Assembly: GCA_022425505.1 (NCBI GenBank)
Contig: JAKMFI010000082.1
Location: 1-40,907, forward strand
Direction of reading: 5' to 3'
DNA length: 40,907 nt
Source: Flavobacteriaceae bacterium
GTDB taxonomy: Bacteria; Bacteroidota; Bacteroidia; Flavobacteriales; Flavobacteriaceae
Below are positions 3,430-4,921 of this stretch, one piece after another. Each line of letters begins with the position of its first letter. Position 1 is the stretch's first letter. Under the pieces are notes generated by a model, which was not told where the DNA came from, searched no databases, and was given only the letters and a program-made list of their open reading frames with translations. Made by a program: the position numbers and the translations under genes.

Positions 3430-3459
3430 TTGTCAGTTCTATAAAGGGTTTTATATTTG
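3430..3459 (+). promoter_or_regulatory. Bacteroidetes-type promoter of tRNA-Phe (TTG / N19 / TATATTTG)
   Basis: TTG 3430-3432, 19-nt spacer, TATATTTG 3452-3459, just upstream of tRNA start 3477; fits the TTTG-N19-TAnnTTTG consensus. Confidence 0.6.
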
Positions 3460-3476
3460 CATCTGCCTAAGCGCAT

Positions 3477-3549
3477 GGTACCTTAGCTCAGTTGGTAGAG
3501 CAAAGGACTGAAAATCCTTGTGTCCCTGGTTCGATTCCTGGAGGTACCA
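3477..3549 (+). tRNA. tRNA-Phe(GAA)
   Basis: 73-nt cloverleaf: acceptor GGTACCT/AGGTACC, anticodon arm AAGGA-CTGAAAA-TCCTT (anticodon GAA), T arm CCTGG-TTCGATT-CCTGG (one T-T mismatch). Confidence 0.95.
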
Positions 3550-3551
3550 CT

Positions 3552-3588
3552 AGACCTTAATTAATTGTTATTCAGTTAGTTAGGGTCT
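3552..3588 (+). terminator. Rho-independent terminator-like hairpin directly after tRNA-Phe
   Basis: AGACCTTAA (3552-3560) pairs with TTAGGGTCT (3580-3588; one G-U), followed by TTTTATTTT. Confidence 0.55.
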
Positions 3589-3727
3589 TTTTATTTTGAT
3601 GATTTTTAATCCTTTTTGGGAATCGAACCAGTATCTTAATATACTGTATATCAGGCAATTAAATATTTTTTTGTGGTACACACTTCCACATCCTTAAAAT
3701 TCACCTTTATTTCATTAAATTTACAAT

Positions 3728-4015
3728 ATGGACAATAAATTATTTGGAGTTTTATTTTTCTGTTTTTTAATGGTTTTAGTTTTTGGATTAAACTATATCA
3801 CCCAACGAGTAGATATGGACAAAGTTCCCCAACAGAAGAAAAATAAATACCTCACTTGGTTTTGGTATTTCTATGGTGTTTTTTATCTCTTTTATGGATT
3901 AAGTGACATCTTTTTTGAAGGAGATTTTTTGTTTGGTACAATATGGGTAGTAATTTCCATAACAATTCTAATCTTGAACTATAAGGGTAAAGTTTTCTCT
4001 AACCTTTCCAAATAA
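3728..4015 (+). CDS. Small predicted membrane protein (about 3 TM segments), function unknown; only ORF of the tRNA-Phe insertion
   Basis: 95-aa ORF with hydrophobic segments LFGVLFFCFLMVLVFGLNYI, YLTWFWYFYGVFYLFYGLSDIFF, FLFGTIWVVISITILILNY. Confidence 0.6.
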   Translation: MDNKLFGVLFFCFLMVLVFGLNYITQRVDMDKVPQQKKNKYLTWFWYFYGVFYLFYGLSDIFFEGDFLFGTIWVVISITILILNYKGKVFSNLSK

Positions 4016-4054
4016 GTACTTTTCATAATCAACTTTTACATATAAATTTTATCG

Positions 4055-4073
4055 TGGTACACAATGTGTACCA
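4055..4073 (+). terminator. Perfect 9-bp dyad downstream of the 95-aa ORF; terminator-like or recombinase/regulator site
   Basis: TGGTACACA-A-TGTGTACCA followed by TATTTTTTATA; the 1-nt loop makes a protein-binding dyad an alternative. Confidence 0.4.
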
Positions 4074-4136
4074 TATTTTTTATAACTAACTGATTTTCAA
4101 TAAAAAATTTGATGGTTTTATTTCTGGAGGTACCAC

Positions 4137-4167
4137 AAACTCCGAGCTTGTTGTAAGCTCGGAGTTT
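4137..4167 (+). terminator. Strong intrinsic terminator, probably the ancestral tRNA-Phe terminator
   Basis: AAACTCCGAGCTT (4137-4149) / AAGCTCGGAGTTT (4155-4167), perfect 13-bp stem, loop GTTGT, then TTATTTAT. Confidence 0.75.
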
Positions 4168-4171
4168 TTAT

Positions 4172-4921
4172 TTATAACATCTTTAAAAAATCGATTTCTT
4201 GTTTGGTCAAGTGCCGCCATGTTCCTCTTGGAAGGTCTTTTTTGGTGAGCCCTGCAAAAACAACTCGATCCAAAGCAATCACCTCATAACCCAAGTGTTC
4301 AAATATGCGCCGTACGATTCTGTTTCTGCCCGAGTGAATTTCCAATCCAATTTCTCGTTTACTCGCTCCTTGGACATAGCTTACCTCATCGACTTTAACA
4401 GGACCATCATCGAGAGTAAATCCCCTACGAATCTGCGCCAAATCATGCGGTTTTAAGCTTTTGGAAAGTACCACATGGTAAAGTTTCTTGACCATCGATG
4501 ACGGATGGGTTAGTTTTTTGGCCAGATCACCATCATTGGTAAATAACAATAGTCCCGTTGTAGGGCGATCGAGGCGACCCACAGGGACAATGCGAGAGGG
4601 CGTTGACTTTGCAACCAGATCCATTACCGTTTTTCGACCGCGCTCGTCTTTGGTGGTTGTGATAAATCCCTTTGGCTTGTTGAGAAGGACATAGGCCTTT
4701 TTTTCAGGGTTAATACGTTTCCCGTCAAAATGCACAACGTCTCTTTCCTGAACTTGATAGCCAAGCTCTGTAACGACCTGATTGTTGACCTTTACCACAC
4801 CCAACCCAATGTGCATATCGGCTTCTCTGCGAGAACAAATCCCTGCATGGGCAATGTATTTATTAAGACGAGTTGTGCTTTTGGGAGTTGATTTCTTTGC
4901 AGATGATTTTCTTCGATTCAT
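4172..4921 (-). CDS. rluB: Pseudouridine synthase of the RsuA/RluB family
   Basis: S4-like N-terminus TRLNKYIAHAGICSRREADMHI, VGRLDRPTTGLLLFTNDGDLAKKLTHP, GRNRIVRRIFEHLGYEV. Confidence 0.85.
   Translation of the reverse strand: MNRRKSSAKKSTPKSTTRLNKYIAHAGICSRREADMHIGLGVVKVNNQVVTELGYQVQERDVVHFDGKRINPEKKAYVLLNKPKGFITTTKDERGRKTVMDLVAKSTPSRIVPVGRLDRPTTGLLLFTNDGDLAKKLTHPSSMVKKLYHVVLSKSLKPHDLAQIRRGFTLDDGPVKVDEVSYVQGASKREIGLEIHSGRNRIVRRIFEHLGYEVIALDRVVFAGLTKKDLPRGTWRHLTKQEIDFLKML

Follow-up and report, generated by a model that had tools for sequence, protein, structure and literature searches.

The question raised by this locus is how a 586-bp segment came to lie directly behind a tRNA-Phe gene, with a copy of the tRNA 3' end at each border and no integrase inside. 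The window analysed is the whole stretch of 40,907 nucleotides, a contig of a Flavobacteriaceae genome. The genomes it was compared with were incomplete MAGs and single-cell genomes. In our reading, the segment (3551–4136) is probably a non-autonomous integrative cassette for which a tyrosine recombinase would be supplied in trans.

The duplicated tRNA-Phe tail described in the first-pass annotation was found again by repeat search: GGTTCGATTCCTGGAGGTACCAC at 3528–3550 recurs as GGTTTTATTTCTGGAGGTACCAC at 4114–4136, with 20 of 23 matches, a spacing of 586 and a perfect 13-nt core. The core has two exact copies in the window, where the chance expectation is 0.01 (shuffles, up to 1 mismatch), and it occurs at exactly two places in the whole 1.36-Mb genome, which answers the concern that it might be a common genomic repeat. 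An inverted-repeat search also recovered the 13-bp terminator stem (AAACTCCGAGCTT/AAGCTCGGAGTTT) abutting the second repeat copy. As had been noted, the segment has a single sizeable ORF, which encodes a 95-aa protein, and no integrase. The unit therefore has the hallmark of a tRNA element, a direct repeat of the tRNA 3' end at both borders with the tRNA restored; of the integrase that a tRNA-targeting element is expected to carry, nothing was found beside this ORF. The features are collected in Table 1.

Table 1. Features of the tRNA-Phe locus (window positions; roles of att, arm and terminator features are predicted).
Feature	Position	Strand	Basis
tRNA-Phe (GAA), target gene, 3' end restored by insert	3477–3550	+	ARAGORN; Rfam RF00005 (E=1.3e-14); relatives
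attL core CTGGAGGTACCAC	3538–3550	+	exact 13-mer, two genome copies only
Integrase-less cassette, 586 bp, attL core end to attR core end	3551–4136	+	clean empty junctions; L142/L135 units
Cassette-borne intrinsic terminator for tRNA (AGACCTTAA..TTAGGGTCTTTTT)	3552–3592	+	sequence; other cassettes
Inverted exact copy of tRNA T-arm half-core CTGGTTCGATTCC, 13 nt	3619–3631	-	inverted-repeat search
Inverted P-arm-like sequence (arm site, TGATATACAGTAT, half-core)	3621–3683	-	arm-model match, E=1.5e-5
Single left arm-type repeat TGGTACACA	3674–3682	+	inverted-repeat search
Cargo gene, 95-aa predicted membrane protein, small Flavobacteriaceae family	3728–4015	+	ORF, homologs, AF2
P-arm palindrome TGGTACACAATGTGTACCA, putative integrase arm-type sites	4055–4073	.	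collection-wide palindrome search
Conserved P-arm element TAACTAACTGATTTTCA	4083–4099	+	alignment of 13 arms
P-side GGTTTTATTT preceding attR core	4114–4123	+	sequence, repeat search
attR core CTGGAGGTACCAC	4124–4136	+	sequence, repeat search
Ancestral chromosomal terminator (AAACTCCGAGCTT stem), directly after tRNA at empty sites	4137–4172	+	relatives, inverted repeats

The 74-nt tRNA-Phe gene is identical in 11 same-genus relatives. An empty site, with the tRNA followed by the AAACTCCGAG terminator, had been predicted for some relatives and different content between the same borders for others, and both were found. In 9 of 12 same-genus genomes (G001, G002, G004–G008, G010 and G012), the tRNA is joined directly to the AAACTCC terminator; in G008, the flanks of this clean junction are 93% identical to the window. 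The opposite case raised by the first-pass annotation, the same 586-bp segment in all relatives and no empty site, is contradicted by these nine genomes. G003 has another element at the site, with an integrase as its first gene, and G009 has a different gene after tRNA-Phe. In G011, the window unit is shortened to 345 bp, 82% identical, with a further internal deletion in the ORF, and stands in tandem with another element bearing AGTACCC arms.

The same unit was found at tRNA-Phe in a MAG labelled Lutibacter (L142, 94.6% identical to the window) and in a Flavobacteriaceae MAG (L135, 90.7%), with a length of 586/587 bp in L142/L135. A comparison of the window with L142 gave no DNA similarity beyond 3450–4137, and the protein of coaX, the gene adjoining the unit, is only 39% identical. 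Given 94.6% identity of the unit beside a neighbouring protein at 39%, these comparisons indicate that the unit has spread horizontally as a whole, with its right border exactly at the core. In the window and in L142, the unit is on its own, bounded by its two copies of the core; in L135, only a decayed left end lies behind it. This stretch (L135:7018–7090) is a degenerate second copy of the cassette left end directly behind attR, i.e. a tandem remnant.

Two other explanations can be weighed at this point. A dead relic, meaning the deletion remnant of one old element that came down by vertical descent and disappeared from most relatives, would fit the missing integrase, the ORF deletion in G011 and a dN/dS of 0.4–1.1 for the 95-aa ORF, at which clear constraint is not shown. 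It is very unlikely, as the copy in unrelated L142, whose flanks have no detectable DNA similarity, is closer to the window unit than the copy in G011 of the same genus, and as the empty site in G008 is clean. A duplicated or misassembled tRNA tail might be suspected because the genome is 79% complete and split into 146 contigs, one of which is the window. The structure recurs, however, in the independent assemblies of L135 and L142, and other genomes have related cassettes, so that the probability of an artefact is practically negligible.

Three features of the interior had been missed in the first-pass annotation, one of them the inverted 13-nt T-arm copy at 3619–3631. The insert supplies its own terminator directly behind tRNA-Phe, and a terminator stands at the same position in other cassettes and in integrase elements. 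Moreover, TGGTACACA repeats occur in the cassette, and two of them make up the palindrome near its right end. The order there is palindrome TGGTACACAATGTGTACCA, then TAACTnnnTGATTnTCA, a GGTT-containing stretch and the core, which resembles an attP arm; the window unit thus has a P arm with palindrome and TGATTnTCA ahead of the core. On the tRNA side, no 12-bp-phased pair of arm repeats was found in the tRNA-Phe units of the window, L142, L140 and L137. The left side of the window unit has instead one arm site and an inverted arm-like half-core. This left arm is atypical, and it is the main feature at odds with our reading.

L135 and L142 retain the inverted T-arm half-core; in G011 and L140 it is degenerate. 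In tRNA-Phe units, CTGGTTCGATTCC lies beside arm sites (window 3619–3683, minus strand). In tRNA-Met units, the inverted half-core is GGTTnnAGTCC, often followed by GGTTTGGACT; half-cores were seen in L131, L132, L134, L143 and L144.

An exact palindrome search over 257 Gb of sequence found TGGTACACAATGTGTACCA at 19 places, 12 of them in Bacteroidota. In all 12 Bacteroidota loci, the same arm precedes the tail of a tRNA-Phe or tRNA-Met, always by an equal distance. Matches in Acinetobacter, a Helicobacteraceae MAG and a Euryarchaeota MAG were set aside, as neither a tRNA nor such a context was seen. In 13 genomes of the genus, a looser form of the palindrome occurred at three loci only, and a reversed-pattern control gave none. 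A sequence model of the arm brought in more relatives with other palindromes (TGGTACCC, GGAACCC). Other cassettes without an integrase thus form a family in which the right attP-like arm is conserved.

A phage origin was considered and rejected: there was no DNA match in phages, the attP-like patterns were absent from IMG/VR, the palindrome matches in IMG/VR look like unrelated coding regions and the integrase relatives there are at most 28% identical and without such arms. The pattern TGTGTACCA-N3-TGTGTACCA was seen in 55 IMG/VR contigs (L260–L314), in some beside integrases of other lineages, as recognised by a crude motif. These viral matches are a hint that the arm motif may serve elsewhere as an arm site and is possibly widely used.

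The tRNA-Phe units counted were those of the window, L135, L142, L140 (with a 91-aa homolog), L137 (221 bp) and G011; the tRNA-Met units were those of G002 (two), G101 (three), L143, L144 and G426. No integrase was found in the units bounded at both ends. The tRNA-Met cassettes form tandem arrays, often with anti-phage genes. Sister-cassette cargo comprises a Bsp6I-type restriction endonuclease with a C5 methylase, further C5 methylases and PDC-S18, all of which match known defence families. G101 and G002, which belong to different genera, have two cassettes in common, in opposite order: the one with the restriction-modification (R-M) system (95.1% over 3.6 kb) and the one with PDC-S18 (85% over 1.3 kb). 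In the G101 array, each of the three cassettes has one arm type at both ends, unlike its neighbours', and L143 and L144 have homologous ends and different cargo. These units appear to form a cassette family at tRNA-Phe and tRNA-Met in unrelated marine Flavobacteria, singly or arrayed and in many cases with anti-phage genes.

A 221-bp cassette at tRNA-Phe (L137:164–384) has several arm sites and no space for the 95-aa gene. It may represent a tyrosine-recombinase element in a minimal, MITE-like form.

The main rival explanation is a cis-mobilizable remnant: an autonomous element at tRNA-Phe would have lost its integrase along with other genes, and the leftover would have moved only in cis, by tandem accretion to a neighbouring element, and later lost its helper. 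This is the description given of CIMEs (PMC5704250), which keep their att sites, have neither integration nor transfer genes and occur in tandem at tRNA genes. The ssrA islands of Dehalococcoides, a serine-recombinase system in which 15 islands are without an integration module, are read likewise (PMC3146451). The window unit also keeps att sites without integration and transfer genes, its left arm looks rearranged, tandem arrays are common and the shortened G011 unit is itself part of a tandem. With the ssrA islands, the cassettes share the tandem arrangement, the bounding by RNA-gene 3'-end repeats and, in some, the missing recombinase. We nevertheless consider the cis remnant less likely. 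The unit is alone between its own cores in the window genome and L142, and only the decayed left end accompanies it in L135. The matched arms of each G101 cassette and the opposite order of two cassettes in two genera suggest individual mobility. Unlike CIMEs, these cassettes have a conserved right arm, stand alone in unrelated genomes and change order, and trans rather than only cis mobilisation is suggested for them. Unlike the ssrA islands, they have attP arms in the style of tyrosine recombinases, and of several types.

The reading as trans-mobilised cassettes may extend to the arrays. These might be an integron-like system of marine Flavobacteria without integrons, in which integrase-less cassettes of single genes or operons, often anti-phage ones, build up and reshuffle behind tRNA-Met and tRNA-Phe and each arm (TGTGTACCA, GGGTACCA, GAGTTCCAA, GGGTTCCATTT) addresses a different trans integrase from autonomous elements at the same tail; we put this forward tentatively, with doubt and belief in near balance. 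Further arm-site sequences named beside TGTGTACCA in this arm code are TTGTTCCAAAT and GGGTACTA. CALINs, i.e. integron cassette arrays without an integrase (PMC11389934), are likewise integrase-less arrays mobilisable in trans. Their borders are attC sites; those found here read as tRNA-tail cores with attP-like arm sites.

Elements with an integrase were found at the same tRNA tails in G003, G336, G426, G378, G352 and G275. They are about 6–17 kb long and resemble the cassettes in their tRNA tails, terminator and arm repeats; unlike the window cassette, they encode an integrase (~515–550 aa) and often a ParB-like gene. The integrases have Phage_integrase and Arm-DNA-bind_5 (PF17293) domains, that of G003 a SAM-like domain as well. 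Of 400 family genomes, 7 have relatives of the G003 integrase. All seven copies with their upstream side present follow immediately on a tRNA (Phe, Met, Asp, Val), and their elements have an exact repeat 12 bp apart, with a sequence differing from element to element. An exact arm repeat 12 bp apart, 53–68 nt after the tRNA tail, was present in all eight integrase-bearing elements (8/8), and the same layout was present in all six tRNA-Met cassettes (6/6), compared with 37 of 2000 random windows. Integrase elements with a known right end have a comparable arm before the core, and the right arms in G426, G275 and G352 are of similar plan.

In several autonomous elements (L245, L252, L246, L112), the ParB-like gene follows the ~515-aa integrase. 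Integrases of ~350 aa were seen 0.6–4.4 kb upstream (on the 5' side) of tRNA-His, tRNA-Trp and tRNA-Met (L191, L192 (window genome), L122). In L122, integrase and tRNA are separated by an ORF of 131 aa that has a possible HUH motif. These loci represent another element type.

The helper search covered PF00589 in 14 genomes and the arms around 19 integrases and gave no integrase element with TGGTACAC arms. Likewise, the carriers, the 400 family genomes and the marine-type viral contigs yielded no integrase that lies in an element with TGTGTACCA arms, which counts against our reading. Five cassette-bearing genomes have only two tyrosine recombinases each, both of XerC/XerD size (about 300 aa). 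This agrees with our reading. It would also suit a mobilisation by host XerC/XerD and not by an element integrase, which is scarcely probable: the core is a tRNA tail and not obviously dif-like, and the arm layout is like that of elements whose integrases have an arm-binding domain.

The first-pass annotation had left a choice between a deletion remnant and a minimal cassette mobilised in trans. The cassette is the better supported of the two, and the remnant the less, because the same 586-bp structure is found in two further, unrelated genomes (91–95% DNA identity) and the right arm is shared. The mobilisation in trans itself we infer from the integrase-bearing elements with the same attachment layout; what the arms do and how the DNA passes between cells are inferred as well. 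The attP of the cassette (core CTGGAGGTACCAC with flanking arm sites) would be recombined by a tyrosine recombinase acting in trans with the tail of tRNA-Phe, which would restore the tRNA and leave attL and attR. With the cassette would come a terminator for the tRNA, a single gene for a membrane protein and a right arm to which the integrase would bind. Likely helpers would be integrases like those of the autonomous elements at the same tRNA tails, each reading its own arm sequence.

For the 95-aa cargo protein, AF2 predicts three helices (pLDDT 80.8). No usable match was found in Pfam, PADLOC, PHROGs, plasmids and a PDB fold search, and none to a known defence family. Distant homologs (about 22–43% identical) occur in other Flavobacteriaceae. 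Six of the homologs lie 3' of tRNA-Val or tRNA-Phe (L083, L084, L086, L087, L088, L090); they were set aside as chromosomal relatives, as they are convergent to the tRNA and without direct repeats. The toxin, immunity or exclusion function that the first-pass annotation had offered as speculation thus has no family match behind it. A defence role of the protein would be only a guess, by association with the sister cassettes.

Tycheposons and PICMIs (PMC11389934, PMC10803314) are also marine mobile elements dependent on helpers. In the window unit, no phage satellite gene (packaging, capsid or phage-derived) was found, and the cargo ORF has no PHROG match. No description of such cassettes in Flavobacteria was found in the open-access literature.

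The signature of arm palindrome, TGATTnTCA and tRNA tail provides a handle for finding further cassettes and their helper integrases. An arm code would make it directly testable which integrase moves which cassette. If our reading is true, gene-sized insertions, including anti-phage genes, would spread in streamlined marine Flavobacteria without carrying a recombinase.
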